NCBI RefSeq assembly: GCF_016757735.1
Contig: NZ_CP068439.1
Location: forward strand, 2,630,001 to 2,694,000
Direction of reading: 5' to 3'
DNA length: 64,000 nt
From: Aequorivita iocasae
GTDB lineage: Bacteria > Bacteroidota > Bacteroidia > Flavobacteriales > Flavobacteriaceae
In this document: one piece after another, positions 4,135-53,497 of the stretch
How positions within the stretch are numbered: the stretch's first letter is position 1
How the letters are laid out: every line of letters starts with the position of its first letter
Notes under the pieces: generated by a model
The model's database searches: none
What the model was told of the DNA's origin: nothing
What the model saw: the letters and a program-made list of their open reading frames with translations, nothing else
Program-made: the position numbers and the translations under genes

Positions 4135-4136
4135 GT

Positions 4137-5552
4137 TTATGATTCTCGTTTTTTCAAAAGTACAACATTTTCTACGTGATGGGTCTGTGGAAACATATCT
4201 ACAGGCTGTACTTTCAAAACCTTATAATTTGAATCCAAAAGCGCCAAATCACGCGCTTGGGTTGCGCTATTGCAACTTACGTAAACAATTTTAGGAGCGC
4301 CCAAGTTCAGTAATTGCGAAACCACATCAGCATGCATCCCGTCGCGGGGCGGATCGGTGATAACAACATCCGGTTTCCCGTGGGTATTGATAAATTCCTC
4401 ATTAAAAACTTTTTTCATGTCGCCCACGTAGAATTCAACGTTTTGAATATTGTTTAATTGCGCGTTTTCTTTGGCAGCTTCAATAGCATCGGGGACTGCC
4501 TCAACACCAATCACCTTTTTGGCTTTTTTGGCGACGAATTGAGCAATTGTTCCCGTTCCCGTATAAAGATCGTAAACCAGTTCCTTACCACTTAACTCGG
4601 CAAAATTACGGGTTATTTTATAAAGCTCGTAGGCTTGTTCGCTGTTCGTTTGGTAAAAGGATTTGGCGTTTATTTTAAATTTCAAACCTTCCATTTCCTC
4701 AAAAATATGGTCTCTTCCGGAGAAAAGTTTAATATCTTGATCATATAGCGTATCATTCCCTTTTGAATTGATTACATATAACAGGGAAGTAATCTGTGGA
4801 AATTCTTTTGCAACAGCGCTTAAAAGTAAATTTCTGTTTTCTTCATCTTCGTGAAAGAACTGGACCAAAACCATTATTTCGCCCGTCGAAGAAGTACGTA
4901 TCATCAGTGTTCTTAAAAAACCTTCCTGATTTCGAGTGTTAAAAAAAGAAAGATTTAATTTTTCGGCTTTGGCTTTTATAAAATCGCGGATGGCGTTACT
5001 TGGATCGGCTTGGAGATAACAGATATCGAGATCCAGAATCTTATCCCACATTCCAGGAATATGAAATCCCAAAGCATTTCGGTTTTCAATAACTTTATCG
5101 CTTTTAATCTGTTCCAAAGTCAGCCATTTGTTATCGCTAAAGGAAAACTCCATCTTGTTGCGATAGAAATATTGATTTTCGGAACCCAGAATAGGTTTAA
5201 TTTCCGGTAATTCTACTTTGCCGATACGCTTTAAATTTTGTTCAATTTCTTTTTGCTTAAAAAAAAGTTGGTGCTCATAGCCCATATTTTGCCATTTGCA
5301 ACCCCCGCAGGTTCCGAAATGTGGACAAACAGGCTCGACTCTTTTCTCGGAATATTTTGTAATCGTAATTGCAGAGCCTTCATAATATGCTTTTCGCTTT
5401 TTATGGGTCTGTACAATAACGGTATCGCCGGGTACAGCGTTGTCAATAAAAACTACTTTTCCATCCGGGGCCTTTGCCACGGCTTTTCCTTTTGCTCCCG
5501 CATCAATTACCTCAATATTTTCAAAAAGTACTCTGTTGTTTCGTCTTCCCAT
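4137..5552 (-). CDS. rlmD: 23S rRNA (uracil-1939 C5)-methyltransferase RlmD
   Basis: 471 residues. A TRAM RNA-binding domain (about 8-65) precedes an iron-sulphur cluster region with Cys76, Cys82, Cys85 and probably Cys178, then a SAM-binding core (DLYTGTGT), DPPRDGMH and the nucleophile loop with Cys427 (YVSCNSATQ). This is the full RumA/RlmD architecture, which makes m5U in 23S rRNA using SAM. Some Bacteroidota paralogues modify other uridines, so the exact site is inferred. First gene of an operon with two envelope proteins of unknown function. Confidence 0.9.
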   Translation of the reverse strand: MGRRNNRVLFENIEVIDAGAKGKAVAKAPDGKVVFIDNAVPGDTVIVQTHKKRKAYYEGSAITITKYSEKRVEPVCPHFGTCGGCKWQNMGYEHQLFFKQKEIEQNLKRIGKVELPEIKPILGSENQYFYRNKMEFSFSDNKWLTLEQIKSDKVIENRNALGFHIPGMWDKILDLDICYLQADPSNAIRDFIKAKAEKLNLSFFNTRNQEGFLRTLMIRTSSTGEIMVLVQFFHEDEENRNLLLSAVAKEFPQITSLLYVINSKGNDTLYDQDIKLFSGRDHIFEEMEGLKFKINAKSFYQTNSEQAYELYKITRNFAELSGKELVYDLYTGTGTIAQFVAKKAKKVIGVEAVPDAIEAAKENAQLNNIQNVEFYVGDMKKVFNEEFINTHGKPDVVITDPPRDGMHADVVSQLLNLGAPKIVYVSCNSATQARDLALLDSNYKVLKVQPVDMFPQTHHVENVVLLKKRES

Positions 5553-5588
5553 AGGCGCAAAAATAGTATAAATGGAACTTTTAAAACC

Positions 5589-5604
5589 TTTTGAAGCTTC
5601 AAAA
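5589..5604. promoter_or_regulatory. 16-bp perfect palindrome between rlmD and rocD
   Basis: TTTTGAAGCTTCAAAA is a perfect palindrome located 37 bases upstream of the rlmD start and 95 bases upstream of rocD. Its place between divergent genes suggests an operator, but no regulator can be named. Confidence 0.35.
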
Positions 5605-5621
5605 AATGTGGGATTATTTTA

Positions 5622-5642
5622 GTAATTTGCACCCCTAGGGTG
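5622..5642 (+). promoter_or_regulatory. Probable rocD promoter with overlapping dyad
   Basis: TAATTTG (5623-5629) is a one-base-short version of the TAnnTTTG -7 element. It is followed directly by the dyad CACCC-CTA-GGGTG (5630-5642), which would cover the transcription start. The dyad could be an operator or a 5' stem in the leader. Confidence 0.4.
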
Positions 5643-5698
5643 ATTTCTCTCCATTAAGTAGGAATCAAAACTTTTTTACTTCAAATTTTTACAATTTT

Positions 5699-6940
5699 AT
5701 GTCAGTCTTAGAGCAAACAGCTTCACAAAAAGCTATCGATTTAGAAAACAAATACGGAGCCCATAACTATCACCCATTGCCAGTAGTCTTGAGCAGGGGA
5801 GAGGGTGTGTATGTTTGGGATGTGGAAGGTAAGAAATACTACGATTTTCTTTCGGCCTATTCTGCGGTTAACCAAGGACATTGCCACCCAAAAATTGTGG
5901 GTGCAATGACTGAACAGGCAAAAAAGTTGACGCTTACTTCACGTGCATTTTATAATGATATGCTTGGAAAGTATGAAAAATTTGCCTGTGAGTTTTTTAA
6001 TTTCGATAAGTTACTTCCAATGAATACGGGTGCCGAAGCAGTGGAAACTGCCTTGAAAATATGTAGAAAATGGGCTTATGAAAAAAAAGGCATTGATGAA
6101 AATGAAGCAGAAATAGTAGTTTGCGAAAATAATTTTCACGGAAGGACTACCACCATTATTTCTTTTAGTAACGATCCTGTGGCACGTAAAAATTTTGGGC
6201 CCTATACCAAAGGTTTCATAAAAATAGAATACGACAATCTTGAGCAACTTGAGAAGCATTTGGAAAGCAATAAAAATATCGCAGGTTTCCTTGTAGAGCC
6301 CATTCAGGGGGAGGCTGGAGTTTACGTACCTTCGGAAGGCTATTTAAGCAAAGCAAAGGCCTTGTGCGAAAAACATAATGTGCTTTTTATTGCCGATGAA
6401 GTACAGACAGGTATTGCCCGTACCGGTAAATTACTTGCTGTTGACCACGAAAACGTTAAGCCCAATCTCTTAATTTTGGGTAAAGCCTTGAGTGGCGGCG
6501 CTTATCCGGTTTCTGCGGTTCTTGCCAATGATGATGTGATGAATGTAATAAAACCTGGAAATCACGGTTCCACTTTTGGTGGAAACCCTGTGGCGGCTGC
6601 CGTTGCAATAGCTGCACTAAGTGTAGTTAAAGATGAAAAACTTGCCGAAAATGCTGAAAATCTTGGACAGATATTCCGAAACGAACTGAATATGTATATT
6701 GAAAAAAGCAATATTGCAAAATTGGTTCGTGGAAAAGGCTTGCTGAACGCTATTTTAATAAATGATTCTGAAGACAGCGATACTGCCTGGAATATTTGTT
6801 TAAAGCTGCGTGACAATGGTTTGCTTGCAAAACCTACCCACGGTAACATCATTCGTTTTGCACCTCCTTTAGTAATGAACGAGACACAGTTGCGGGAATG
6901 TGTTTCTATCATAATTGAAACGTTAAAGACCTTTGAGTAA
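5699..6940 (+). CDS. rocD: Ornithine--oxo-acid aminotransferase
   Basis: 413 residues, class III PLP-dependent aminotransferase. It moves the delta-amino group of ornithine to 2-oxoglutarate, giving glutamate semialdehyde, which links arginine/ornithine breakdown to proline and glutamate. The PLP-binding Lys262 lies in [10 protein letters not shown], preceded by the acid DEVQTG that contacts the PLP ring nitrogen. N-terminal [13 protein letters not shown] is characteristic of OAT rather than acetylornithine aminotransferase. Single-gene unit with its own promoter and terminator. The proline dehydrogenase at 46810 acts in the connected pathway. Confidence 0.92.
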
Positions 6941-6964
6941 CTTTTTGCTAAGAAAATTTTAAAT

Positions 6965-6992
6965 AAAAAAGCGGCCCAAAGGCCGCTTTTTT
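6965..6992. terminator. Bidirectional terminator after rocD
   Basis: GCGGCC (6971-6976) pairs with GGCCGC (6981-6986) around a CAAA loop, with A and T tracts on either side. It serves rocD and the converging CCC-motif gene. Confidence 0.9.
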
Positions 6993-7005
6993 ATTGTGTT
7001 GATGG

Positions 7006-7326
7006 CTACATACCGTATTCTTTCATAAGCTCTTCATTCATATTCATAATACCTTCCATTCCCAAAGTGGAAAAGAGGTAGATTACATATACCAAATAAA
7101 TTGCACTGAGAATAATTCCAATAATGGAAAGTATTTTTCCAGTTTTAACATTTTGATAGCCTGTATAAATTTCTGGATTGGCCATATAGACTTTAGTGGC
7201 TTTGCCGGCCATTACAATAGCAACAATTCCAAAAATAAGACCTAGTCCATAACAACAACAGGTTACAATAGAAATAATTCCAAAGACGAGAATTAAGGTT
7301 GCGTTGGGTAGTTTTTGTTGTTCCAT
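7006..7326 (-). CDS. CCC-motif small membrane protein
   Basis: 106 residues from the ATG at 7326 (MEQQKLPNATLIL). I prefer this start to an in-frame ATG at 7386 because the 20 extra residues are not protein-like and the remaining start gives a clean cytoplasmic N-terminus. There are two hydrophobic segments with the striking triplet CCC followed by YGLG in the first, and a second membrane helix near residues 66-89. Proteins of this type are common in Flavobacteriaceae, often beside a DUF2752 gene as here. Function unknown. Confidence 0.7.
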   Translation of the reverse strand: MEQQKLPNATLILVFGIISIVTCCCYGLGLIFGIVAIVMAGKATKVYMANPEIYTGYQNVKTGKILSIIGIILSAIYLVYVIYLFSTLGMEGIMNMNEELMKEYGM

Positions 7327-7390
7327 GTTTTCCAATAATTTAGATGTGAATTTAAATGTAGCAAAAAAATTAAAACTGTTTTTCAATAAG

Positions 7391-7687
7391 TTACATAAAA
7401 TGGCTCATTTTGATGAAATAACTTATTATCATCACAAGGGCATTCAGAAGTATAAGTCCAATTTTTAAATGATAATCAAATTTAAATTTCACAAAAAAAT
7501 TAAACAAAATTACAGCCAGCAGCAGAAAAATAGTATAAATGGCTGGATATATTTTAAAGGCCGCCTCAAACTGACCGGAAAAAAGAAGGGCTGTCGCACG
7601 TTGCATGCCACAGCCCAAACATTCTATACCGAAGATTTTCTTGTTTATACAAGGAATCATATAATCTTCTATGCCCTTTAGGAACAT
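7391..7687 (-). CDS. DUF2752 family small membrane protein
   Basis: 98 residues. It carries the DUF2752 signature, here CLGCGMQRA near residues 23-31, followed by a long hydrophobic stretch with two membrane helices. ATG at 7687 and at 7660 are both possible; the second would start at MIPCINKK. It lies upstream of the CCC-motif gene on the same strand, so they are likely expressed together. The biochemical role of DUF2752 is unknown; the paired cysteines suggest metal or redox chemistry, which is inference. Confidence 0.7.
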   Translation of the reverse strand: MFLKGIEDYMIPCINKKIFGIECLGCGMQRATALLFSGQFEAAFKIYPAIYTIFLLLAVILFNFFVKFKFDYHLKIGLILLNALVMIISYFIKMSHFM

Positions 7688-7699
7688 ACAGATTATGAT

Positions 7700-9628
7700 T
7701 TACTTATTATGAACGATGGCTTTATAATCAATAGCAATGTCATCTGCAGTCATTAGTTTTACCAAGTACACACCATCACTTAAATTACCCGTATAAAAAC
7801 TGTACTTATTGTTTGCGCCCAGATTTGATTCGGAAATTACAAGTTTTCCATTCATATCATAGACAGATGCAGACTTTATAATATAACCTTCCGGGTTGTT
7901 GATTTCAAGTTGTTGAACTGGATTATTTTGAAATAGAGTCACATTGTCCAAAACAATTTTTTTAGTCTCCAATTCAGTTTCAGGAACATCGCGAATTACG
8001 TTTGCATTACGGAAAACAATAAAAAACCTGTTTTCATATCTGCCAGCAGGTAGATTTAATGTTGCACTACGGCCTCCGGTTATTTGCTGATAGTTATTTT
8101 CTACACGATCAAACAGATAGGCGTGTTCATAAGGCTTTTTAATTTCTTCAACTGCCTTAATATCAACTTTGCTCTGATTTTTTATTTTAAAAGCGATAGG
8201 AACTTGTTTTGATTGCTCATATTTAATACCATTAATAACATAAGGCTTGCGATTATTATCGTCACCGATTGGGAAATAAGCATCAGTCTGTAAATCTTGT
8301 GCGCTCAAGCCGTCCAATCCGCGATCGTAACCATCGGTAGCCTGGTCATAAAAGGCTATAACCATATCTCTGGTTACGGCTTCGTCAAAGATTGACCAAA
8401 TGCGGATGCTTGGGGTACGATAGTCCGGTCTTGCAGTAGTAGGATCGGTGCGGTTTAAATCTTCATTTTCGGAAGTCTGGTCAGCAGAACTCCCCTCGGG
8501 TCTTTGAAATACAGAACCGGCGGTATCTTCTTTATAAAATACTCTGTATGAGTTTTTTATTTCAACATTTCCAGTTGCATTACCTACAAACATTATTCCT
8601 TGGCCTATAGGAGCGAAACGTTTGTTGTCGTCACTATTGGTACTAGATCCAGCTCCTCCTGTGGTCCCTCCAGCGGCAGTATAATAATAAAATGGTGCCG
8701 CTGAGTATGTTCCTAAATTATCTAAATCATAAGGGTCATTATCAGTATCTTCAGGACCCACGGTATAAACACCATAACCGAAAGGCTTTTGTGAGTAATA
8801 GTGTGAAGCTACGGTACGGTCTTCATCATAATACCAAAATGTTGAAAGTTCATTATTATCAGGTAAGTCATAAAATAACTTATTTAAATCCATTGCGGAT
8901 GGATAAGGATTTCCACTCAGTGTCATCTGAGGAACCCCTGCAACAGGTGCGGCTACGGGAATGGAAAAATTTCCATTATTGGGTCTTCCTCTAAATTCAT
9001 AAACTTGGTCTCCCCCTGGAGCACTTAGCCCAACGCCTTTCATAGTAAAGCCAAAACCGGGAGGCGCATTGTTTCCACTATTCATGCGTATATAATGTCC
9101 TTCGGCCTCAGTTCCGGGTTGAGGATGCGTATAAAGCCAACGGGTAGATACAGTTATGGGCGTAGTAGTGTCCAGACCATCACGTCCCGTTGTTATATTA
9201 ACCTTACTAGCGCCAGTTAAACTACTAGCATTGGGTTCATATAAAAAATTAACACCAAAACTTCTATTGCCTGTAGGATTTGGTGAACCAATGTTTCCTG
9301 GATTTCCAATTGGCGAGCACCAATAATAATAAGCCCAGGCATTGGTTTCAGGTGTATTTTGTTGCACTGAAAGTTGACCGTCTCCACTGTTGTTAGAAGT
9401 AGTTCCGCCTTGTATTAACTGTCCATTATTTCGCAAATAAATACTGGCCTCGGTATCGTTAGCAGTTCCGTTTCTTGTTAAATTCACATAATCAGTAACA
9501 TAGAGAACTTCATCATTTACATACACATAGCTATCTGTGCCAGAATTGGTATTAGGCTTCACGGATAACTGCGCAAAAGCACCAGCAGTAGTTAATAGTA
9601 AACTTGAAAAGAGTAGTAGGTTTTTCAT
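7700..9628 (-). CDS. Large T9SS-secreted protein with type A sorting domain
   Basis: 642 residues from the ATG at 9628 (MKNLLLFSSLLLTTAGAFAQ, a clear signal peptide). An ATG at 9664 would put 12 charged residues before the signal and is rejected. The body is rich in N, G, D and S with beta-strand patterns and no recognised catalytic motif. The last 80 residues are a T9SS type A sorting domain: LFQNNPVQQLEINNPEG, IKSASVYDMNGKLV, then LSDGVYLVKLMTADDIAIDYKA. It is therefore exported by the type IX system and probably attached to the surface or released. Likely role, such as adhesin or gliding-surface protein, is a guess. Confidence 0.85.
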   Translation of the reverse strand: MKNLLLFSSLLLTTAGAFAQLSVKPNTNSGTDSYVYVNDEVLYVTDYVNLTRNGTANDTEASIYLRNNGQLIQGGTTSNNSGDGQLSVQQNTPETNAWAYYYWCSPIGNPGNIGSPNPTGNRSFGVNFLYEPNASSLTGASKVNITTGRDGLDTTTPITVSTRWLYTHPQPGTEAEGHYIRMNSGNNAPPGFGFTMKGVGLSAPGGDQVYEFRGRPNNGNFSIPVAAPVAGVPQMTLSGNPYPSAMDLNKLFYDLPDNNELSTFWYYDEDRTVASHYYSQKPFGYGVYTVGPEDTDNDPYDLDNLGTYSAAPFYYYTAAGGTTGGAGSSTNSDDNKRFAPIGQGIMFVGNATGNVEIKNSYRVFYKEDTAGSVFQRPEGSSADQTSENEDLNRTDPTTARPDYRTPSIRIWSIFDEAVTRDMVIAFYDQATDGYDRGLDGLSAQDLQTDAYFPIGDDNNRKPYVINGIKYEQSKQVPIAFKIKNQSKVDIKAVEEIKKPYEHAYLFDRVENNYQQITGGRSATLNLPAGRYENRFFIVFRNANVIRDVPETELETKKIVLDNVTLFQNNPVQQLEINNPEGYIIKSASVYDMNGKLVISESNLGANNKYSFYTGNLSDGVYLVKLMTADDIAIDYKAIVHNK

Positions 9629-9808
9629 ATTTTTACGGTTTTTAAAAGCTTTGATGTGGGGCAAAAAAGCCTTTTTTCACGGTTTAAATTTAAAAATAAT
9701 ATTTAATATATTGAGATGTTTGCCCTAAAATACGTAAAATTTTAGTTTAGAGGTATTTATGGGCATTAAATAGTGCGTTTTTTTTTAAAAGAGTTTATAA
9801 TATTTCAT

Positions 9809-10354
9809 ATGAAAATTGGTGATAAAGTTTCTGTTTTGGATGATGCCATTTCTGGCGTTGTTACTGGTGTGAAAGGGAATGAGGTAGCTATTCTGACCAC
9901 CGATGGCTTTGAACTGGTTTTTTTAAAAAATGAACTTATTGTTGTGGACGGTTCGTTATCAAAACGCGAACTTGCGCAGATGGACGTGGAGGCTATAATT
10001 TCAGAAAAACAACAAAAAAAGCCTGGAAAAACCCAGCGCATCAAGTCCAAAGAACGCAACTTACCGCCTATGGAGGTAGATTTGCACATAAACCAGTTGG
10101 TGCCAAAAACCCGCGGATTGGATAATTATGAAATGTTGACTATTCAGTTAGACACCGCAAAAAGGCAATTGGATTTTGCCATTTCAAAACGCATTCAAAA
10201 AGTTGTCTTCATTCATGGGGTAGGCGAAGGTGTACTTAGGACAGAACTGGAATATCTCTTTAACCGTTACGAAAACATAAAGTTTTATGATGCAGACTAT
10301 AAAAAGTACGGTCGTGGAGCAACTGAAGTTTACATTTTTCAGAATGTGAAATAG
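9809..10354 (+). CDS. Smr/MutS2-type endonuclease domain protein
   Basis: 181 residues from the ATG at 9809 (MKIGDKVSVLDD); the upstream ATG at 9773 would add 12 residues of doubtful value. The N-terminus is a small beta-domain (about 1-60), then a basic linker with KKPGKTQRIKSKER, then an Smr domain: VDLHINQL, VVFIHGVGEGVLRTEL and YGRGATEVYIF. Smr domains nick or bind nucleic acids; flavobacterial DUF2027-Smr proteins of this shape have no assigned substrate. Single gene. Confidence 0.8.
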   Translation: MKIGDKVSVLDDAISGVVTGVKGNEVAILTTDGFELVFLKNELIVVDGSLSKRELAQMDVEAIISEKQQKKPGKTQRIKSKERNLPPMEVDLHINQLVPKTRGLDNYEMLTIQLDTAKRQLDFAISKRIQKVVFIHGVGEGVLRTELEYLFNRYENIKFYDADYKKYGRGATEVYIFQNVK

Positions 10355-10416
10355 TGAAAGAAAATTAACTTATATTTCTTTTTGATCTATTCTTGCTAAA
10401 AACTAAGGTTTGCAGA

Positions 10417-11304
10417 TTAGAATTCTGGCGTGGTGGTTTTGTTTACTGTTTTTATATTTAGAAGCATTCCCATATCCAATGTTTCTTGGGTAATGGTTTC
10501 GTCCCCACTTACCAACACTACATTTTTCAGAACAATTTCCGCACTTTTGGAAATGGTATATGTGTGCTCACGATACAGGTTTACTTGATAGTCTATTGCT
10601 ATTTCAGGGTTAAGATAATCTGCACCTGCTGTAGTGTCTGTAACGTCGTTTCTGGGATCAAGATCCATGTTTTTATCTTCGTCACGGGTTAGGATGCCAT
10701 CACCATCATCATCAGGGTCTAAATAATTGGGGATTCCATCGCCATCAGTGTCTAATGGACTAGTTAAGGGATTGTTGTCGCCATCAGCGTTTTCAATATC
10801 AAGTTCAAGTGCCGTGGGTACGTTGTCGCCATCATCGTCTACATCATATAAATCTGGTATGCCGTCTCCATCAGTATCACCGTCAAATTCATCATCTGCA
10901 TCCACGCCATCGTTATCGTCAAAATCAAAAACTGTTGTAAATTCTGCAGTACCATCGGTAGCAACGTAGTTTGCGGTAACATTTGGGGAAGTAGGGGGCA
11001 CACTTTGGCAGAAATAATCATCGGTCAGATCGCCATCGTAGGTTCTATAGTTTACAAAGTTAGCAGTCCCATTTAAGGTATAGGATGCCGTGCCCTGTGC
11101 TCTGTATAAACTATCGGTAACACCCAATTTAAGCGAGAGGCTTTCCCGTGCCTCAGGATTTATTTTATAGAAAACATAGTCTCCAAGCTCGCCACACACT
11201 TCCAATGAGGCATCGTCAAAATTGAAGGTTGTTATAATAATATCGCCGTCATCACAGCTTGTGAAAATAAAGGAGGCAACCAAAATCAGGAAAATCTTTT
11301 TCAT
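10417..11304 (-). CDS. Lipoprotein with thrombospondin type 3-like calcium repeats
   Basis: 295 residues from the ATG at 11304. The signal peptide ends in FIFTSC, so the protein is lipidated, and the next residues (DDGD) are acidic, as in Bacteroidota surface-export signals. The middle carries consecutive DxDxDG repeats (DGDTDGDGIPDLYD, DTDGDGIPNYLD, DDDGDGILTRDED), which bind calcium in thrombospondin type 3 modules. The C-terminal part is strand-rich. A cell-surface structural role is likely. An upstream in-frame ATG at 11370 is rejected because it would bury the lipobox. Confidence 0.75.
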   Translation of the reverse strand: MKKIFLILVASFIFTSCDDGDIIITTFNFDDASLEVCGELGDYVFYKINPEARESLSLKLGVTDSLYRAQGTASYTLNGTANFVNYRTYDGDLTDDYFCQSVPPTSPNVTANYVATDGTAEFTTVFDFDDNDGVDADDEFDGDTDGDGIPDLYDVDDDGDNVPTALELDIENADGDNNPLTSPLDTDGDGIPNYLDPDDDGDGILTRDEDKNMDLDPRNDVTDTTAGADYLNPEIAIDYQVNLYREHTYTISKSAEIVLKNVVLVSGDETITQETLDMGMLLNIKTVNKTTTPEF

Positions 11305-11385
11305 CGTAAATTTAAAAGTCATCGTCGGTTTACAAAGTAACGCAATTCTTTTTAACTGAAATGCCGACAAAACTGTTTTAATATG

Positions 11386-11393
11386 TATTTTTG
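11386..11393 (+). promoter_or_regulatory. -7 element of the cysteine desulfurase gene
   Basis: TATTTTTG matches TAnnTTTG exactly. It gives a leader of roughly 65 bases before ATG 11466, unusually long for this window. Confidence 0.55.
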
Positions 11394-11465
11394 CGAACCG
11401 AAATAGAGGAAGAGCCCTGCTTCAAATAAAACTCGGCACTTGCCGGTTTTTATAAAAAATAACCA

Positions 11466-12620
11466 ATGAAGAAAGTATATTTTGATAGCGCAGCAACTAC
11501 CCAATTGCGCGACGATGTTATTACCTGCATTACAGAGGTTTTAAAAACTGAATACGGAAACCCTTCATCTACACACTCTTACGGTAGATCATCAAAATCA
11601 TTGCTTGAAAATGCCCGCAAGGAAATCGCAAAGCTTTTAAATGTTTCTGCAAGCGAAATTATATTTACATCTGGTGGGACGGAAGCCGATAATTTAATTC
11701 TTTGCAGTGCCGTACGCGACCTTGGTGTAAGGCGCATCATTTCCAGCAGGATTGAGCATCATGCGGTTTTGCATACATTGGAATGGTTAAAGGATGAATA
11801 CAATATCCAGCTTGAGTTTGTAAAATTGGACAAATGCGGGCATGTTGATTATGCTCATTTGGAAAATCTTTTAGCAGCTTCTTCAGAAAAAAACTTGGTA
11901 AGTTTGATGCACGTTAATAATGAGGTGGGAAACCTTTTGGATTTGAAGAAGGTTTCACATCTGTGTAAAGAATACAAAGCTCTTTTTCATAGTGATACGG
12001 TACAATCCGTTGGGCATTTTGAACTTGATTTTAAGGAAATACCAATTGATTTTGCCGCCGCCGCTGCGCATAAATTTCATGGGCCTAAGGGAGCTGGCTT
12101 TGCTTTTGTTAGGAAAAATTCTGGGTTGCGTTCACTCATACATGGAGGCGAACAGGAACGCGGTCTGCGTGCAGGTACAGAAGCTGTGTATGCCATCGCA
12201 GGCATGGCGGAGGCGCTAAAACTATCATACCATAAACTCGAAAAGGAGCGAAATTACATCATGGGCTTGAAAGATTATTTTAAGCAAGAGCTTTCAAAAA
12301 ATATTCCTGGGGTAAAATTTAACGGAAGTTGTGACGATAATGAGCGCAGCACCTATACACTTCTAAATGTGTGTTTGCCCATTTCCACAGAAAAGGCAAT
12401 GTTATTATTGTTTCAACTGGACTTAAAAGGAATAGCCTGCAGCAAAGGAAGCGCTTGCCAAAGCGGGGCAGAAGGTGGTTCGCACGTTTTGAATGAAATT
12501 CTTTCCGAAGAGGATTTGAGCAAACCTTCCATTCGATTTTCTTTTTCCAGCTTCAATAAAAAAGAAGAGGTAGATTATGTGGTTGATGTTTTAAAGGAAT
12601 TTATCTCCGAAGGAATCTAA
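11466..12620 (+). CDS. Cysteine desulfurase (NifS/IscS-like)
   Basis: 384 residues, class V PLP aminotransferase fold. Lys203 in AHKFHGPKG forms the PLP aldimine and Cys331 in SKGSACQSG is the persulfide-forming nucleophile. The enzyme takes sulfur from L-cysteine, giving alanine, for Fe-S clusters or tRNA thiolation. No isc or suf genes are adjacent, so a dedicated Fe-S operon role is not supported; a housekeeping IscS-type role in tRNA modification is plausible. Converges with the TonB-dependent receptor gene with 32 bases between stop codons. Confidence 0.9.
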   Translation: MKKVYFDSAATTQLRDDVITCITEVLKTEYGNPSSTHSYGRSSKSLLENARKEIAKLLNVSASEIIFTSGGTEADNLILCSAVRDLGVRRIISSRIEHHAVLHTLEWLKDEYNIQLEFVKLDKCGHVDYAHLENLLAASSEKNLVSLMHVNNEVGNLLDLKKVSHLCKEYKALFHSDTVQSVGHFELDFKEIPIDFAAAAAHKFHGPKGAGFAFVRKNSGLRSLIHGGEQERGLRAGTEAVYAIAGMAEALKLSYHKLEKERNYIMGLKDYFKQELSKNIPGVKFNGSCDDNERSTYTLLNVCLPISTEKAMLLLFQLDLKGIACSKGSACQSGAEGGSHVLNEILSEEDLSKPSIRFSFSSFNKKEEVDYVVDVLKEFISEGI

Positions 12621-12652
12621 TCCAAAAGAGAAAATTGTCATTCAATATCTGC

Positions 12653-15118
12653 CTAAAATTTTGCCGTAAGCCTTACGTTAAAAACACGTGGTGTTAAGTA
12701 ATTCGGGATTGAGTATTGAACTTTGGTGTAAACATCTCTTACGAATGTGTTTGTGATAGAGTTTTGCACATCAAAGATGTTGAATATTTCTGCACCGATT
12801 GAAAATTCCTTAAAAGGTTTTAGCCAACCACTTTCCCTAAGTTTTGTATCGTCAACAATAACGTAGCTTACGCCAAGATCTGCACGTTTATAATCTGGCA
12901 GCCTAACTTGGTAGTCGTAAGGGTCTGCATAACTTGGTGAACCACCGGGAAGCCCCGTATTATAAGTAAGGTTTAAGTACATTTTAAGCGATGGAATTAC
13001 TTTTACATAATCCTGGAACAGCATCCCAAACTTCAAACGTTGGTCTGTTGGCCGAAAAATATACCCGCGATCGTTAATATTTTCCTCGGTTTTTAAATAT
13101 CCAAAACTTAACCAGCTTTCCGTTCCGGGCACAAACTCCCCGGCCAAGCGCAAATCAAGTCCGTAAGCGTATGCTACTGCACTGTTATTGGCGCGATAGC
13201 GAATGCGAACATTTTCCAAGGTGTATGGGTTCACATCGGTTAGATGCTTGTAATAAATCTCAGAATTGAGCCTAAAGGCACGGTCCCACATTTTAAAGCT
13301 GTAATCATTGCCGAATACAATATGAATGGATTTCTGCGCTTCCACACCTGGGCGAACGGTTCCGGTAGAATCCCGTAATTCTCTATAAAATGGAGGTTGA
13401 TGATACACTCCGCCCGATAGGCGGAAAAGCATGTCCATTTCCCAATCCGGTTTTAAAGCAACTTGGGCCCGAGGACTAAAAACGGTTTGTGTGGTACTTG
13501 TTATATCCTTACCACTAACGGTCCAATTATGTGCACGAACACCCGCATTTAGCCAAAGTTCGCTATTGCCAAGACTGGTTTTTCTGCTCCATTGAGCATA
13601 GCCCGATATTCTATCTATTTGGGTATCGTTTTGTGCACGAACGTTGGTATATGGTACAATTGGAGATGTATCTGCTGCATACGGTTGATCGTTCGGTGGA
13701 AATATAGGCGGACGGATGGAAAACCCTGCCGAGTCAATAATTTCATATTCCTGAACCCGATCGCGAATGTCTTCGTGAGTGTACTTTATGCCGTACTCGA
13801 TATTGTTTTCATCTAATGAAAGATTTCCTTTGTGCTCTACGTTAAGAATCAATGCGTCCAAATCATTCCGTGCGTGGGTAAGTTGGCTCCCAATGCCGCG
13901 CGTAAATTCTACCGTGCCCAAATCTTCGCTTCCAATTTCAGTATTTACTTCTCCCAATCGATATTCCGCAAGAATATCATAATATTCCTGTTCTGTAGTT
14001 TGGTAAAGCGAACCAATAAATTTTGCAGTGTAATTATCTGAAACTACCCAAGTAGATTTTAATGCGCCGAAGTAGGTATTGTATCGATCTTCTTCCCGGC
14101 CTTCATAAAAAACTAGCAGCGCGATAGGATCTGTAATCGTTCCAAAGTTTGTTTGCCTTGTTAAGGGTCTGTAATTGTATTCGTTTAGCGACACATTGCC
14201 CAAAAAGCTTAATTCAAATTTATTGGTGAATTTATAGGTAAGATAAGTCTGTGCATCTGCAAATTTAGGTCTGTAGTTTGTTTCGGTTTCCTTTGCGTTG
14301 ACCAATAAACTGTTATCGCGATAACGAATTCCGAGAATTCCAGAAAGTCGCCCATTTTTTGAAATTCCTTCAACGGAACCACTTGCGCCCAAAAGGCTCA
14401 AATCTACCGATGCGCCAAAATCAACAGGCCGACGGTAGGTTATATCCAAAACCGAGGAAAGTTTGTCGCCATATTTGGCCTGAAACCCTCCAGCGGAAAA
14501 TTCCACATTACTTGTAAGCTCGCTGTTTACGAAGCTTAAACCTTCCTGTTGCCCGCTTCTTATAAGAAAAGGACGATAAACTTCAATCTCGTTTACGTAA
14601 ACAAGGTTTTCATCATAGTTCCCGCCGCGAACGGCATATTGTGTGCTCAGTTCATCGTTGCCGTTAACGCCTGGGAGCGATTTCAGAAGATTTTCTACTC
14701 CAGCATTGGCGCCAACCATTTTTCGTATTACTTCTGGTGAAATGGTGGTAACACCTTCCACGCGTTTGTTTTCACGACCCGAAATAACGACTTCGGGAAT
14801 TTGTTCTACATCAATTTTTAATACTGGATTCAATTCGTAATCCTCATTTGGACTTAAATTAAAACGAAGCTTGGCATTTTTATGACCAACGTGGGAAAAA
14901 ATAACAACCACCTCTTGGTCTGAGGGAATTTCCAAAAGATAATAACCATTTAAATCGGAAATAGTTCCCTGGTCTTCATATGTTACGTTTACACCGGCAA
15001 GCGGTGTGTTATTTTCATCCAGAATGACTCCTCGTACGGTTGCCTTTTGGGCAAATACAACGGTTGCGAAAAAAAAGAAAAGGAGTGTAAGCGGTAGTTT
15101 AATTGTTTTCAAAAGCAA
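12653..15118 (-). CDS. TonB-dependent receptor with carboxypeptidase-like domain
   Basis: 821 residues. Signal peptide (cleavage after VVFAQ), then a CarboxypepD regulatory-like beta-sandwich (about 25-110, TVRGVILDENNTPLAGVNV), a plug domain (about 125-225, with SLPGVNGNDELSTQYAVRGG) and a large outer-membrane barrel ending in RLTAKF. These receptors import large ligands using TonB energy; there is no SusD partner here, so polysaccharide uptake is not indicated. It lies 3 bases downstream of the M23 peptidase gene, so the two are co-transcribed. Ligand unknown. Confidence 0.88.
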   Translation of the reverse strand: MLLKTIKLPLTLLFFFFATVVFAQKATVRGVILDENNTPLAGVNVTYEDQGTISDLNGYYLLEIPSDQEVVVIFSHVGHKNAKLRFNLSPNEDYELNPVLKIDVEQIPEVVISGRENKRVEGVTTISPEVIRKMVGANAGVENLLKSLPGVNGNDELSTQYAVRGGNYDENLVYVNEIEVYRPFLIRSGQQEGLSFVNSELTSNVEFSAGGFQAKYGDKLSSVLDITYRRPVDFGASVDLSLLGASGSVEGISKNGRLSGILGIRYRDNSLLVNAKETETNYRPKFADAQTYLTYKFTNKFELSFLGNVSLNEYNYRPLTRQTNFGTITDPIALLVFYEGREEDRYNTYFGALKSTWVVSDNYTAKFIGSLYQTTEQEYYDILAEYRLGEVNTEIGSEDLGTVEFTRGIGSQLTHARNDLDALILNVEHKGNLSLDENNIEYGIKYTHEDIRDRVQEYEIIDSAGFSIRPPIFPPNDQPYAADTSPIVPYTNVRAQNDTQIDRISGYAQWSRKTSLGNSELWLNAGVRAHNWTVSGKDITSTTQTVFSPRAQVALKPDWEMDMLFRLSGGVYHQPPFYRELRDSTGTVRPGVEAQKSIHIVFGNDYSFKMWDRAFRLNSEIYYKHLTDVNPYTLENVRIRYRANNSAVAYAYGLDLRLAGEFVPGTESWLSFGYLKTEENINDRGYIFRPTDQRLKFGMLFQDYVKVIPSLKMYLNLTYNTGLPGGSPSYADPYDYQVRLPDYKRADLGVSYVIVDDTKLRESGWLKPFKEFSIGAEIFNIFDVQNSITNTFVRDVYTKVQYSIPNYLTPRVFNVRLTAKF

Positions 15119-48426: not shown

Positions 48427-49626
48427 TTAGAAAATTAACAGATTGATATCGCTATAAGACATATTGAACCAATCTGCACAAGCTTTATTTGTCAATATTC
48501 CGCGGTAAAAGTACAAACCATTTTTTAAACCATTGTCAAAGCGGATGGCATTTTCCAATCCACCGCTTTCTGCAATTTCTAGAATATAGGGGGTAAATAT
48601 ATTACTTATGGAAATAGAAGCCGTTTTTGGATAACGTGCAGGAATATTCGGGACCCCATAGTGTATTACTTCGTGCTTAATGTAGGTGGGGTTGTCGTGG
48701 CTTGTCATTTCAGTAGTTTCAAAACAGCCGCCCATATCTACGCAAACATCTATCACCACAGCGCCTTTTTTCATATTGCGCACCATTTCCTCCGTAACAA
48801 TAATGGGCGCACGATTTTGACCACGAACTGCACCAATTGCCACGTCACATCGCAAAAGTGCTTTCATTAAATTTTTTGGCTGTATAGTTGAAGTATATAA
48901 AATCCGACCTACATTGGTCTGAATTGATCTAAGTTTTGTGATGGAACTATCAAAAACCTTAACATTTGCACCCAATCCCAACGCCGATCGTACAGCAAAT
49001 TCACCTACGGTCCCCGCTCCAATAACTACGACTTCAATAGGAGGGACCCCGCTAATATTGCCGAAAAGAAGCCCATTTCCTTTTTTTGCGTTTACCATAA
49101 GTTCCGCTGCAATAAGAACTGATGCGGTACCTGCAATTTCACTCAATGCTTTAACGGCGGGATAGCTGTGGTCCTCATCTTTTATAAATTCAAACGCTAA
49201 GGCAGTTATTTTCTTTTTTGCAAGGGCGTCAAAGTAAGATTTCTGTCTCGTCTTTAATTGCAGGGCAGAAATTAATACTGTTTTGGGCTTCATTAAATCC
49301 AATTCTTCAAGGGTAGGGGGCTCTACTTTGAGAACCATGGGGCACCCGAACACTTTTTTTGTGTCGTTGGTAAGCTGTGCTCCGGCTTCCGAATAGTCTT
49401 TGTCTGAAAATCCGGCTTCATTGCCTGCTCCATTTTCAATGAGGACACGGTGTCCGTTGTTGACTATGGCGTTGACAGCGTCTGGAGTTAGGCAAATACG
49501 TTTTTCTTGAAAATAAGCTTCCTTTGGTATGCCAATAAAGAGCTCGCCTTTTTGTTTGGAAACTTCAAGGGTTTCTTCTTGGGGAAGCAATTGTGCTCTT
49601 GTGAAGGGTGATTTTGGCTTTGACAT
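48427..49626 (-). CDS. ald: Alanine dehydrogenase
   Basis: 399 residues. N-terminal substrate domain (IGIPKEAYFQEKRICLTP, MVLKVEPP with the substrate lysine) and NAD-binding domain with GAGTVGEFAVRSALGLGANVKVFD. Oxidative deamination of L-alanine to pyruvate and ammonia. It is longer than Bacillus-type Ald by about 25 residues, mainly at the N-terminus, and resembles the flavobacterial branch close to transhydrogenase alpha subunit; some uncertainty on substrate remains. Confidence 0.82.
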   Translation of the reverse strand: MSKPKSPFTRAQLLPQEETLEVSKQKGELFIGIPKEAYFQEKRICLTPDAVNAIVNNGHRVLIENGAGNEAGFSDKDYSEAGAQLTNDTKKVFGCPMVLKVEPPTLEELDLMKPKTVLISALQLKTRQKSYFDALAKKKITALAFEFIKDEDHSYPAVKALSEIAGTASVLIAAELMVNAKKGNGLLFGNISGVPPIEVVVIGAGTVGEFAVRSALGLGANVKVFDSSITKLRSIQTNVGRILYTSTIQPKNLMKALLRCDVAIGAVRGQNRAPIIVTEEMVRNMKKGAVVIDVCVDMGGCFETTEMTSHDNPTYIKHEVIHYGVPNIPARYPKTASISISNIFTPYILEIAESGGLENAIRFDNGLKNGLYFYRGILTNKACADWFNMSYSDINLLIF

Positions 49627-49680: not shown

Positions 49681-50217
49681 TTATCGAAAGAGATCTTTTA
49701 TCTGCTGCCAAAAAGATCGTTTGTGCAAAAGTTCTTCCTCAAATGATTTCAAATCGTCCTGTCTCATTTGGCTAAAAAGCTTTGCTCTTATTAAATAAAC
49801 AAAAGGAATAACAACCATCATTATCGGAATTACATATATAATTTCAACTTCATCAACACTGCCAAAATTTTGTTTTAGGATATTAAACAATTGAAAAACA
49901 TACATGGATAAAGGCACAAGAATGATCCAATGCCACCAGTGCTTACAGGTAAAAAACCAAATTAAAAGTAAAAGCACAGGAATGATTTTGCCTGTTAAAA
50001 ACCATGCATATTGATAAAGGGAAGGGAATTTAGTGGTAAATGTAAAAAAAGAAGTTTCCCAAACTTGTGTATCGCTTGGGAAACTTTCATACGCATAATA
50101 TATAAATGGGGTGCATGCCATTATAAAAACAACAATGCCGCCCTGTATTAAGCTTTTTTTATCCGGCTGGCGGAACGGTAACCGTCCTCGCATCGATTTG
50201 TTGTGGGGTTTGTTCAT
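49681..50217 (-). CDS. Integral membrane protein, cassette copy 1
   Basis: 178 residues with three to four membrane helices and an invariant CKHWW motif near the centre, DEVEI, PFVYLIRAKL and a cytoplasmic end FEEELLHKRSFWQQIKDLF. It is paralogous to the protein at 50659-51171. The start ATG (50217) lies inside the upstream lipoprotein gene, giving a 59-nt overlap in a different frame; a second ATG at 50193 is also inside the overlap. No known family recognised. Confidence 0.75.
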   Translation of the reverse strand: MNKPHNKSMRGRLPFRQPDKKSLIQGGIVVFIMACTPFIYYAYESFPSDTQVWETSFFTFTTKFPSLYQYAWFLTGKIIPVLLLLIWFFTCKHWWHWIILVPLSMYVFQLFNILKQNFGSVDEVEIIYVIPIMMVVIPFVYLIRAKLFSQMRQDDLKSFEEELLHKRSFWQQIKDLFR

Positions 50218-50299
50218 CCTGGATTCCTTCTGGGGTACAAGAAGCGAATAATCCTACTGCAAAAATTGCGGCTACAATAATAACTTTAAAGTTTTTCAT
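50159..50299 (-). CDS. 46-residue lipoprotein, cassette copy 1
   Basis: A short gene below usual ORF cut-offs. It encodes a clean lipoprotein signal (MKNFKVIIVAAIFAVGLFAS then Cys21) and a 25-residue mature part, CTPEGIQDEQTPQQIDAR..., with no domain. Reality is supported by a near-identical second copy at 51113-51253 with the same length, the same 18-nt leader and the same 59-nt overlap with its partner. The last 19 codons overlap the membrane protein gene. Likely a lipid-anchored partner of that protein. Confidence 0.8.
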   Translation of the reverse strand: MKNFKVIIVAAIFAVGLFASCTPEGIQDEQTPQQIDARTVTVPPAG

Positions 50300-50658
50300 A
50301 ATAATAAGTTTTTGTGAGGTTAATATGGGTCAAACTTACAATCAAAAAACTTAAGCATACTAATTATGTTAATTGTATCTTTACAGGTTATAATGCAATT
50401 AAATCCTTTGAAATTCATTCAAAAATTCAATTTAATGTTAATTTTTAACATTTACTGCAACCCTGCTTATAGTTGTTAATTCACCGGCAATGTTTTATTT
50501 GTTTTATTTCGCTTTTAGTTAGTTTTAATTTTTTTTCTTTTTAACTCCATGCTAAAGCTATAATTGTAATGTAGGTATTCTTTATACTAGATGTTAAAAT
50601 GATAATTATAAAGTACCAAGGTACGTATAAATTTTGAAAATTTAGCGGGGGTCAAAAA
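50300..50658. other. 359-bp interval between the two cassette copies
   Basis: Apart from the copy 1 promoter at its left end, it holds no ORF. GTACC-AA-GGTAC (50613-50624) and AAATTTT-G-AAAATTT (50629-50643) are short palindromes just past the end of copy 2 on the minus strand; neither has a T run, so at most weak terminators. The rest is AT-rich. Confidence 0.5.
50307..50338 (-). promoter_or_regulatory. Promoter and conserved leader, cassette copy 1
   Basis: On the minus strand, TAAGTTTG (50331-50338) is an exact -7 element. The leader carries AGTTTTTGTGAGGTTAAT on the plus strand (50307-50324), identical to the same-position block of copy 2 and 8 bases from each start codon. Confidence 0.65.
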
Positions 50659-51171
50659 TCAGAAAAGATCTTTTATCTGCTTCCATATAGAATTTTTAGA
50701 ACCTAGTTCCTCTTCGAAACTTCGTAAATCCTTTCCTATTAATTTATTCGAAAGCTGAGCTTTTATAAGATAAACAAACGGAACTATAACTAACATTATA
50801 GGAAAGAGCCACCATATTTCAACTTCATCGGTAATACCCACGTCATCATTAATAACGCTGAATAGCTGAAAGGCAAACATGCCTATTGGGATAAGAATCA
50901 CGTGGTACCACCAATGCTTACAGGTAATAAACCAAATAACCAACAGTAGGAGGGGAACAAACTTCCCCATCATTGTCCATGCAGATACTTTTACTTCTTG
51001 GTACCAATTTGCTTGGTATGTAAATAAAAAAGTTTCCCACGTTTTTGTTTGTGGGAAACTTTCATAACTGTAAAAAATATACGGTGATGCTGCTATAATA
51101 AGCGCTATAATACTACCCGTTGCTAGGTATGATGATTTTACTTTTTTCAATTTGTTGGGGTGCTTGTTCAT
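50659..51171 (-). CDS. Integral membrane protein, cassette copy 2
   Basis: 170 residues from ATG 51171 (MNKHPNKLKK). Three to four membrane helices, with the same landmarks as copy 1: YESFP, CKHWW, DEVEI, PIMLVIVPFVYLIKAQL and LRSFEEEL..QIKDLF. The ATG at 51201 proposed by a longest-ORF rule would start inside the lipobox of the lipoprotein; the homologous start in copy 1 (MNKP) supports 51171. No other ATG exists until deep in the protein, so the overlap with the lipoprotein gene is well supported. Family unknown. Confidence 0.78.
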   Translation of the reverse strand: MNKHPNKLKKVKSSYLATGSIIALIIAASPYIFYSYESFPQTKTWETFLFTYQANWYQEVKVSAWTMMGKFVPLLLLVIWFITCKHWWYHVILIPIGMFAFQLFSVINDDVGITDEVEIWWLFPIMLVIVPFVYLIKAQLSNKLIGKDLRSFEEELGSKNSIWKQIKDLF

Positions 51172-51253
51172 CTTGGATGCTTTCTGGGGTGCAAGAAGCA
51201 AAGATTCCTAATGAAAAAATTGCCGCGATAAAAAGTACTTTTAGAGTTTTCAT
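51113..51253 (-). CDS. 46-residue lipoprotein, cassette copy 2
   Basis: MKTLKVLFIAAIFSLGIFAS then Cys21, mature CTPESIQDEQAPQQIEKSK... ending in IIIPSNG. Same length (46) and pattern as copy 1; the mature Q/D/E-rich start CTPExIQDEQxPQQI is shared. The last 59 nt overlap the membrane protein gene in another frame. No domain known. Too short for standard ORF tracks. Confidence 0.8.
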   Translation of the reverse strand: MKTLKVLFIAAIFSLGIFASCTPESIQDEQAPQQIEKSKIIIPSNG

Positions 51254-51260
51254 AATTAAT

Positions 51261-51293
51261 AGTTTTTGTGAGGTTAATAACACTTCAAACCTA
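51261..51293 (-). promoter_or_regulatory. Promoter and conserved leader, cassette copy 2
   Basis: Minus-strand TAGGTTTG (51286-51293) is an exact -7 element; the plus-strand block AGTTTTTGTGAGGTTAAT (51261-51278) equals that of copy 1. Confidence 0.65.
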
Positions 51294-51438: not shown

Positions 51439-51852
51439 TTATTTCACCGGCAAAAATTTTAAAGTTCTACTTCCGTTATTATTAATTTTGATATTAATTT
51501 TATTAGCATCTTCAGGCAAAAGGCGATCAATTTTTTCGGGCCATTCAATAAAAATATAGGCTCCGCTATATAAATAATCCTCTAGGCCAATATCAAAAGC
51601 TTCAGCAATATCTTTTATCCTGTAAAAATCAAAGTGGTAAATAGCGCCCTTGGGGGTTTCATATTCGTTAACTATTGAAAAGGAGGGACTGCTTGAGGTT
51701 TCAATAACTCCCAGTTGTTTAACAAGCTCTTTTATTAAAGTTGTTTTGCCCACACCCATATCGCCATAAAAAAGAAATACATTTGAGGCTGAATTTTTTA
51801 AAAGTTGTTCAGCTATTTCGCCAATATCATTTTGGATATATGTAAATTCCAT
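51439..51852 (-). CDS. tsaE: tRNA threonylcarbamoyladenosine biosynthesis ATPase TsaE
   Basis: 137 residues. P-loop GDMGVGKTT at 30-38, Thr/Ser-rich switch SSSPSFSIVNEYETPKG and HFDFYRI, then FIEWPEKI. TsaE works with TsaB and TsaD to form t6A at position 37 of ANN-decoding tRNAs. Usual length; lies downstream of porX on the same strand. Confidence 0.92.
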   Translation of the reverse strand: MEFTYIQNDIGEIAEQLLKNSASNVFLFYGDMGVGKTTLIKELVKQLGVIETSSSPSFSIVNEYETPKGAIYHFDFYRIKDIAEAFDIGLEDYLYSGAYIFIEWPEKIDRLLPEDANKINIKINNNGSRTLKFLPVK

Positions 51853-51946: not shown

Positions 51947-53497
51947 TTACTTAGGGGTAAAAACCGAAAATGGAATAATCATCTCTTCCAGCGACACGCC
52001 ACCGTGCTGATAGGTGTTTCTATAGTAACTTACATAGTGGTTATAATTATTGGGGTAGGCAAAGAAATAGTCGCCTTTTGCAAAAATGAAAGAACTGCTC
52101 ATATTTATAGTGGGCAAATAAATTGTCTTCGGATCTTTTGCCGCCAAAACCTCTTTATCTTCATATGTTAAGCTTTTGCCGGTTTTATACCGTAGATTAA
52201 GACTTGTATTTTTATCACCAATCACTTTTGAAGGGTTTTTTACATTGATTGTTCCGTGGTCTGTAGTAATTATCAGTTTGAAGCCGAGACGTGCGGCCTG
52301 TTGTATAATTTCTAGTAGCGGGGAATTTCTAAACCAACTTTGTGTAAGCGAACGGTATGATTTGTCATTTGAGGCCAATTCCTTAATAACCTCCATTTCG
52401 GTTTTGGAATGTGAAAGCATATCAACAAAATTATAGACAACCACAGTTAAGTCTTCATCCTTATGGCTTTTAAAGTTTTCCACTAGTTTTTTACCTTGCT
52501 TCAAACTTGAGATTTTATGATAGCTCCAGTTTAAATTTAGGCCCAAGCGTTTCAATTGTGCGGTTAAAAACTCTTCCTCTTTCATGTTTTTTCCGCCTTC
52601 ATCCGTGTCGTTTAACCATAAATCTGGATGCAATTTCTCCATTTCGCTTGGCATAAGGCCAGAAAAAATGGCATTTCGAGCGTATTGAGTAGCAGTGGGA
52701 AGGATGCTGCAAAAAAGTTCTTCGGAAGTCTTTTTATAAATATTTGCAACCGTGGGCTCAAAGGCCTTCCATTGGTCTACCCTTAAATTATCTACAACTA
52801 CAAGTAAAGTAGGAACACCCTGCTTCAGTTGAGGCTGAATTTTGTCTTTGAATAGCGTGTGCGACATGGTAGGCGCCTCGCTCGGGTCCTCAAACCATTT
52901 CGGATAATTTTTATCGATAAACTTACAGAATTGACTGTTGGCCTCTGTTTTTTGGGATTCCAAAATTTCAAACATTCCTGAATCCTCAATGTTTTCCAAC
53001 TCCAGTTCCCAATAAACCAATTTTGTGTAAAGGTCTTTCCATTCCTCAAAACTATTCACCATAGAAAGGTCCATGGCAATTTTCCGGAATTCCTGTTGGT
53101 AATTTGAGGTAGTCTTTTCAGAAACAAGCCTACTGTGGTCCAGATTTTTCTTTAAGCTCAAAAGAATCTGGTTCGGGTTTACGGGCTTTATAAGATAGTC
53201 GGCAATTTTGGAACCGATGGCTTCTTCCATTATATATTCTTCTTCGCTTTTGGTAATCATTACCACAGGAATGGAGGCTTGCTGCTCCTTGATTTCCGAA
53301 AGTGTTTCAAGCCCTGTGAGGCCCGGCATATTTTCATCCAAAAAAACAATGTCAAAATTTTCTTTTTTTATTTCTTCAAGTGCTTCCGTACCGCTCTGTG
53401 CCGTCGTTACCTTGTAATTTTTGTTTTCAAGGAATAGAATGTGTGGTTTTAGCAAATCTATCTCGTCATCTACCCATAGTACTTTTATGTCGCTCAT
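51947..53497 (-). CDS. porX: PorX: response regulator with PglZ-type phosphatase domain
   Basis: 516 residues. Receiver domain (1-120) with Asp10, Asp11, phosphoaccepting Asp54 in VFLDENMPG and Thr/Lys in MITK and YLIKPVNP; then a helical linker and a PglZ alkaline-phosphatase-like domain with the metal motifs VVVDNLRVDQWKAF and IITTDHGTINV. PorX is the regulator of the type IX secretion system, working with kinase PorY. The linked PorQ and T9SS client genes lie elsewhere in the window. Full length. Confidence 0.9.
   Translation of the reverse strand: MSDIKVLWVDDEIDLLKPHILFLENKNYKVTTAQSGTEALEEIKKENFDIVFLDENMPGLTGLETLSEIKEQQASIPVVMITKSEEEYIMEEAIGSKIADYLIKPVNPNQILLSLKKNLDHSRLVSEKTTSNYQQEFRKIAMDLSMVNSFEEWKDLYTKLVYWELELENIEDSGMFEILESQKTEANSQFCKFIDKNYPKWFEDPSEAPTMSHTLFKDKIQPQLKQGVPTLLVVVDNLRVDQWKAFEPTVANIYKKTSEELFCSILPTATQYARNAIFSGLMPSEMEKLHPDLWLNDTDEGGKNMKEEEFLTAQLKRLGLNLNWSYHKISSLKQGKKLVENFKSHKDEDLTVVVYNFVDMLSHSKTEMEVIKELASNDKSYRSLTQSWFRNSPLLEIIQQAARLGFKLIITTDHGTINVKNPSKVIGDKNTSLNLRYKTGKSLTYEDKEVLAAKDPKTIYLPTINMSSSFIFAKGDYFFAYPNNYNHYVSYYRNTYQHGGVSLEEMIIPFSVFTPK

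Follow-up and report, generated by a model that had tools for sequence, protein, structure and literature searches.

On its minus strand, the window analyzed here, a stretch of 64,000 nucleotides from Aequorivita iocasae, carries two diverged cassettes, each composed of a TAnnTTTG site, an 18-nt leader, a 46-residue lipoprotein ORF and a membrane-protein ORF. Judged from its sequence, this gene pair looks like an undescribed peptide-signaling module. Peptide signaling is textbook knowledge in Gram-positive bacteria. The membrane partner is found in about two thirds of the sampled genomes of the family, and similar peptides are encoded directly ahead of TPR sensor kinases. These peptides are concrete candidate ligands for a class of sensors of which one studied member, FimS, is stated to have an unknown input (PMC11053733). 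A literature search, which had bioRxiv and most subscription journals outside its scope and in part covered best matches only, returned no description of the peptide/membrane pair; within the same limits, it also turned up no account of peptide ORFs that precede TPR kinases in flavobacteria.

The two cassettes, their surroundings and their spread

Both cassettes lie entirely on the minus strand. Cassette 1 opens with a promoter-like site (TAGGTTTG, 51286..51293) and the leader (ATTAACCTCACAAAAACT, 51261..51278), followed by a 46-aa peptide precursor (51113..51253) with the lipobox FASC and the C-terminal unit IEKSKIIIPSNG. The 170-aa four-helix membrane protein (50659..51171), which carries the TCKHWWYHVILIP motif, starts at an ATG inside the peptide ORF, and the two ORFs overlap by 59 nt (51113..51171). 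Cassette 2 repeats this order with the site TAAGTTTG (50331..50338), a leader identical to the first (50307..50324), a 46-aa precursor with the lipobox FASC and the unit IDARTVTVPPAG (50159..50299), a 178-aa four-helix protein (49681..50217) that again starts at an ATG inside the peptide ORF, and a 59-nt overlap (50159..50217). Both putative promoter sites match what we take to be the consensus of the Bacteroidota −7 element. Translation and coordinates confirm for both copies the layout that the initial annotation had described, down to the exact length of the overlap.

The two copies are 59% identical in their peptides and 47% in their membrane proteins. All 18 Aequorivita-clade loci in which a second copy aligned have the 59-nt overlap in that second cassette too, and the duplication is therefore old. 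A search of the window's genome, a single contig of 3.35 Mb, with the membrane protein gave two matches at E ≤ 0.001, both of them these cassettes. The peptide profile also ranks these two ORFs at the top (9.5e-20 and 2.6e-15, with the third match at 6.2e-6) of a noisy set of 49 matches at E ≤ 1 in that genome, many of which are chance hits to signal peptides.

One scan yielded 88 related loci, of which the best 80 were kept. The membrane family normally sits between tsaE-like and ald-like genes. In the window, the same-strand upstream neighbor is an ORF that we take to be TsaE-like (51439..51852, minus strand), with counterparts in 79 of the best 80 loci. It is preceded by a presumably PorX-like response regulator (51947..53497, minus strand), which recurs within the 3-kb flank in 69 of the best 80. 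Downstream lies an ORF presumed to be alanine dehydrogenase-like (48427..49626, minus strand; 79 of the best 80). The stop of the membrane gene and the start of ald are separated by a median of 59 nt in the 58 of 79 loci where this distance is below 500 nt, so the spacing suggests that peptide, membrane gene and ald may share one transcript.

Four loci (L164, L165, L166 and L260) hold, between the porX-like gene and tsaE, two-domain four-helix paralogues of about 340-430 aa, divergently oriented and in up to four tandem copies. Those of L164 lie near genes for a C39-peptidase ABC transporter, an HlyD-like and a CAAX protease-like protein (Pfam) and an HTH protein, an arrangement that L165 resembles by eye. 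The L164 transporter and HlyD queries had no tblastn match at 1e-3 anywhere in the window.

Of 79 peptide ORFs, 73 have a TAnnTTTG site within the preceding 110 nt, where mononucleotide shuffles predict 4.9. The leader core AACCTCAC is present in 19 of 79 loci, so the 18-nt leader is not a general feature.

The pairing of the two genes is tight. A loose detector places a small exported-type ORF upstream of the membrane gene in 79 of the best 80 of 88 loci. The same detector responds to 29 of 1600 dinucleotide shuffles and, among 78 regions upstream of tsaE, to 1. A strict lipobox detector recovers 49 of the same best 80 (6 of 1600 shuffles); the 31 it misses come mostly from a Cys-less clade and include the Cys-bearing L039 and L050. 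Its matches upstream of ald, in 13 of 79 loci, were rejected as false positives, 12 being fragments of the membrane gene and 1 another ORF. Co-occurrence of peptide and membrane genes, which had been put forward as a check, is therefore what 79 of the best 80 loci display.

The membrane gene is present in 275 of 397 sampled Flavobacteriaceae genomes and in 176 of 237 genera. A sample of the phylum gave 12 of 395; 11 of these are Flavobacteriaceae, and the remaining match, interrupted by two stops, is doubtful. Among the 80 loci, L070 comes from a MAG labelled Cytophagaceae.

Constraint on the peptide, its C-terminal unit and the overlap

Coding constraint was estimated from 20 Aequorivita-clade sequences, 19 of them distinct. 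Outside the overlap, the peptide frame has a pN/pS of 0.26, compared with 1.33 and 1.29 in the two wrong frames. Absence of constraint on this frame had been named beforehand as grounds for abandoning the claim, which survives this test. The ratio falls to 0.011 in codons 21-27, directly after the signal part, and is 0.44 in the signal part itself (codons 2-20). Inside the overlap it is 0.41 in the peptide frame and 0.55 in the membrane frame, two values that are not independent; by these ratios, both frames look constrained.

The short precursor begins with a basic-hydrophobic N-terminus, a predicted export-type signal, in 79 of the best 80 of 88 loci, and in the window peptides signal or lipobox sequence stands at the place of a double-glycine leader. 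A lipobox-type Cys is found in 51 of 79 peptides. The 28 peptides without it comprise 26 from the Gramella/Salinimicrobium/Salegentibacter clade, the divergent candidate of L043, and L070; at L060 the peptide reading frame is ambiguous. Judged by these 28 of 79 sequences, the lipobox Cys is dispensable. The label of lipoprotein given initially fits both window copies, which carry FASC, but does not extend to the 28 Cys-less relatives.

The C-terminal unit spans about 12 residues and reads roughly [IV][DE][KR]xx[IV]x[VI]P[ST][NHA]G. A P-x-x-G end closes 71 of 79 peptides and none of the 504 ORFs with at least 180 aa. In some precursors beside the membrane gene the unit is repeated: twice in L037 and L042, three times in L164, four times in L220, three times in L167 with a diverged first unit, and twice, spaced apart, in L078. 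Different synonymous codons encode 18 of 26 repeated residues in L164, 12 of 23 in L167, 5 of 14 in L078, 4 of 10 in L042, 1 of 11 in L037 and 2 of 28 in L220. The L164 value indicates that the peptide unit, not the DNA, is kept, and the spread across loci indicates a mixture of old repeats, maintained as protein, and recent ones. Whole peptide genes are also arrayed ahead of one membrane gene, two in L033, L034 and L040 and six in L107. Short precursors with an export-type signal and a persistent C-terminal unit, multiplied in some loci by repeats or gene arrays, are what a module of secreted peptide signal and cognate receptor would have.

The overlap is less constant than the pair. It is present in 62 of the best 80 of 88 loci, absent from 17 and ambiguous in 1. 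Its length is 59 nt in 40 loci when the most 3' ATG is taken; the start in L069 is TTG. In most cases the membrane start is created by two adjacent peptide codons when they are read in the neighboring frame (Asp-Glu in 34 of 62, Asn-Glu in 12 and Asn-Asp in 5). In the 17 gapped loci, which belong to Galbibacter, Maribacter, Arenibacter, Zobellia and others, 33-299 nt separate the genes. The two states follow clades, with about 5 changes on the tree versus 16.5 for shuffled labels, and the overlap is clade-specific. Persistence in homologous loci, on which the initial annotation had staked its claim, is thus nearly complete for the small ORF but not for the overlap. With gaps of this size in 17 of 80 loci and about five changes of state on the tree, the idea that the overlap itself is functional is left unsupported. 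The same goes for coupled translation, the example given: translational coupling has its usual stop-start geometry, unlike a start 59 nt ahead of the upstream stop, and in the 17 gapped loci the overlap is absent. A translationally coupled overlapping pair would keep its overlap; this pair does not have it there.

Membrane partners, paralogous pairs and TPR histidine kinases

The membrane protein is predicted to form four long helices, with a small hairpin separating helix 1 from helix 2 (pLDDT 72). A PDB fold search with the model gave no match at E ≤ 0.001, the best E being 1.2. Pfam and NCBIfam scans of the peptide/membrane pair gave nothing above cut-off, in keeping with the initial statement that no family was recognized. 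A recognizable output domain was found by these scans in the kinase-linked siblings L219 and L221 and not in the four-helix protein. The N-terminal helices of a LytS-like kinase (L137; G102:C1:1681612-1681785) match the four-helix profile weakly (E 4.6e-5), and a 342-aa frame resembles this match; since helix-rich segments match easily, these are kept as leads.

A paralogous pair in other genera combines a 40-aa peptide ending PPNG with a TSxNWWKYAIL four-helix protein. It adjoins a gene that we take to be mutS-like in 7 of 8 loci; the detector picked up the peptide in 5 of the 8, the exceptions being L215, L218 and L224. The membrane protein of this pair and the first family are homologous (hhalign 99.9%). 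The window's own genome holds a third pair, a peptide with IDKVKICPPGDRNCNGIPDNQED and a second membrane family, in the same overlapping layout (L168, 3484-4159; G000:C1:3233483 onwards). Here the lipoprotein is again small and overlapping, and the membrane family looks unrelated. This second family is rare (14 of 299 genomes) and is accompanied by a small exported-type ORF in 9 of the 9 loci examined, out of 15. Comparison with the first family gave no support for homology: as A3 it reached 1.7% in hhalign, and its 79% match to A4 falls within the first 68 columns, which are partly overlap-encoded. Neither Pfam nor NCBIfam gave a match above cut-off for the second family or its peptide, nor for the paralogues or any further peptide that was scanned.

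Peptide ORFs of this type also precede sensor kinases. Applied to 120 genomes, the peptide profile has a match at 1e-6 in 62, and matches at E ≤ 1e-6 lie directly upstream of TPR histidine kinases in L219, L221 and L256. The kinases of L219 and L221 have TPR and ATPase domains above the Pfam cut-off, and their next genes match response regulators at or just below cut-off; the L256 kinase was assigned by similarity. At the same 1e-6, the profile also matches ordinary lipoproteins of 200 aa (L258) and 119 aa (L222). A small exported-type ORF precedes 29 of the 30 closest kinase relatives, a count reached by loosening the detector after misses (25 of 30, then 26 of 30 with 4 of 600 shuffles, then 29 of 30) on a set that includes the locus of the query itself (L225) and one cut by a contig end (L242).

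Two further sets of kinases gave 19 of 20 versus 29 of 600 shuffles, and 12 of 17 (13 of 17 by the detector) versus 50 of 510, with the L293 candidate judged implausible and left uncounted and a reverse-strand rate of 5 of 37. These 37 segments were hand-picked and therefore are not a random sample, and the sets overlap the discovery set, L296 being L256 again. The small ORF was not found upstream of the TPR kinases of L276, L284, L286, L292 and L295 or of the tandem kinases of L257. In L257, five TPR-kinase-like ORFs stand in tandem (3561-13752), and no peptide ORF was found upstream of the first.

Repeats recur in the kinase-linked precursors, with five in L231, six in L232 and three in L238; synonymous codons differ at 17 of 51, 7 of 62 and 16 of 27 repeated residues, respectively. 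The L232 precursor (1090-1344), which lacks a lipobox and lies ahead of a TPR histidine kinase relative, contains six near-identical CDDCAHDSDDRE repeats. In L279 and L280, four tandem small peptide genes stand ahead of such a relative. A P-x-x-G end occurs in 6 of 32 kinase-linked peptides (individual ends are VPTNG, PPTNG and VPTRG); an acidic LY core is shared by 5 of 29 kinase-linked and 13 of 79 membrane-linked peptides and by 0 of 14 controls. The apparent homology of the two groups of peptides rests on these short motifs. Elsewhere in its genome, the window's organism has one TPR-kinase relative (L255), at whose 5' end a small lipoprotein ORF overlaps the kinase's longest reading frame.

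Possible roles and comparison with known systems

We read the cassette as coding for the precursor of a secreted peptide ligand together with a membrane partner dedicated to it, which most likely receives or reads the peptide, and would give this reading an even chance of being right. The short ORF would be exported through its signal sequence, usually as a lipoprotein, in a topology that would leave an acidic spacer and the C-terminal unit of about 12 residues exposed to the periplasm. Still on its anchor, or cut free by processing, this unit would contact the four-helix protein from the periplasm, and the protein would relay its state through its cytoplasmic tail; any output of such signaling would pass by this route. 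Copies 1 and 2 of the window would then be two diverged peptide/partner pairs. What speaks for the proposal is the gene pair itself with its coding constraint and spread, the repeated unit, the peptide-gene arrays, the similar ORFs ahead of TPR histidine kinases and the like layout of the second membrane family; export, processing, topology, binding and signaling belong to the proposal. Against it stand the want of an output domain or PDB fold match for the membrane protein and the slow change and vertical inheritance of the peptide, in which it is unlike many pheromones. For the link to sensors, the TPR kinases that lack such an ORF, the loosened detector, the overlap of the kinase sets with the discovery set, the shortness of the shared motifs and the profile's matches to ordinary lipoproteins also count against it.

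The loss of Cys from 28 of 79 peptides fits a membrane-tethered partner as well as it fits a released signal, and a tethered small subunit is the main rival. In that case the small lipoprotein would serve the membrane protein permanently, as a small subunit or a feedback regulator comparable to MgrB for PhoQ, and would never be a cell-to-cell signal. Tight pairing in often overlapping genes and inheritance at one locus agree with this, and a peptide that has lost its Cys may still be anchored in the membrane; yet repeated C-terminal units and as many as six peptide genes for one membrane gene are unexpected of a one-to-one subunit, and 17 of the best 80 of 88 loci lack the overlap. We consider it rather unlikely, although likelier than the other alternatives. 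A sentinel role in monitoring the envelope, in which the partner would sense failed lipoprotein sorting in the manner known for the lipoproteins RcsF and NlpE, would suit the lipobox-type Cys of 51 of 79 peptides and partners that are membrane proteins and TPR kinases. It leaves the repeated unit unexplained and has the 28 Cys-less peptides against it, and its probability is small.

A bacteriocin-like peptide to which the membrane protein confers immunity, or some form of toxin-antitoxin pair, would likewise join a small secreted-type peptide to a multi-helix partner, and the two-domain paralogues of L164, with L165 alike by eye, do lie near C39-peptidase ABC transporter, HlyD-like and CAAX-protease-like genes. 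However, the family is carried by 275 of 397 genomes, usually in one place and with a slow-changing peptide, and similar peptides precede sensor kinases. The C39 transporter of a class II bacteriocin is not found near the peptide gene in the window, where the L164 transporter and HlyD are without a tblastn match at 1e-3. The fixed, widespread location and the absence of these genes make this reading less likely, and we regard it as improbable. Least probable is a translated leader that tunes the membrane gene through its own translation, the peptide itself being irrelevant. Its leader position and 59-nt overlap suggest such a role, but amino-acid constraint outside the overlap (pN/pS 0.26), the lipobox, the conserved C-terminus, repeats with differing synonymous codons and gaps of up to 299 nt all speak against it.

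The ligand-precursor reading can be widened, more tentatively and with somewhat less than an even chance, to a peptide language shared across the Flavobacteriaceae. Exported and often lipid-anchored precursors, some with 2-6 units, would supply ligands to two classes of partner, TPR histidine kinases with periplasmic sensors and four-helix proteins without a kinase. Aequorivita would hold two diverged pairs near porX, and the input of Bacteroidota TPR kinases would be the peptide encoded just upstream.

Several known systems share part of this pattern. Entericidin-type lipoproteins (NCBIfam NF007487) fall in the same size class of small lipoproteins, and their similarity to a kinase-linked peptide is weak, limited to the signal peptide and below cut-off (E 0.13); we know of no four-helix partner for them. 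MgrB and SafA are small membrane regulators of sensor kinases. Regulators of this type are likewise very small membrane-targeted proteins paired with a sensor; the repeated C-terminal unit, the gene arrays, and the adjacency and overlap with the partner set the present system apart.

FimS, of the FimS/FimR system of Porphyromonas gingivalis, is described as a histidine kinase whose periplasmic sensor domain contains TPRs; its signal is there stated as unknown, and TPRs as able to bind peptides (PMC11053733). FimS shares the TPR histidine kinase with the kinase-linked loci; the partner in the window is not a kinase. The NCBIfam FimS model gives a partial match to the L221 kinase (8e-11), far below cut-off. 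In the window, the gene beside the peptide encodes a four-helix protein rather than a TPR kinase.

In Gram-positive bacteria, pheromone precursors of the cCF10, Phr and ComS class are lipoproteins or secreted pro-peptides, and the RRNPP receptors are TPR proteins. The present system resembles these in its short exported-type precursor, its conserved C-terminal unit and its location beside a putative receptor gene, and TPR domains occur in one of its candidate receptor classes. It differs in its Gram-negative host and in that one precursor can hold 2-6 units. An RRNPP system has a cytosolic TPR regulator and an imported peptide; here, the TPR domains are part of histidine kinases, the sibling TPR proteins carrying the ATPase domain of that class, and the partner in the window is a four-helix protein with neither TPR nor known effector domain.
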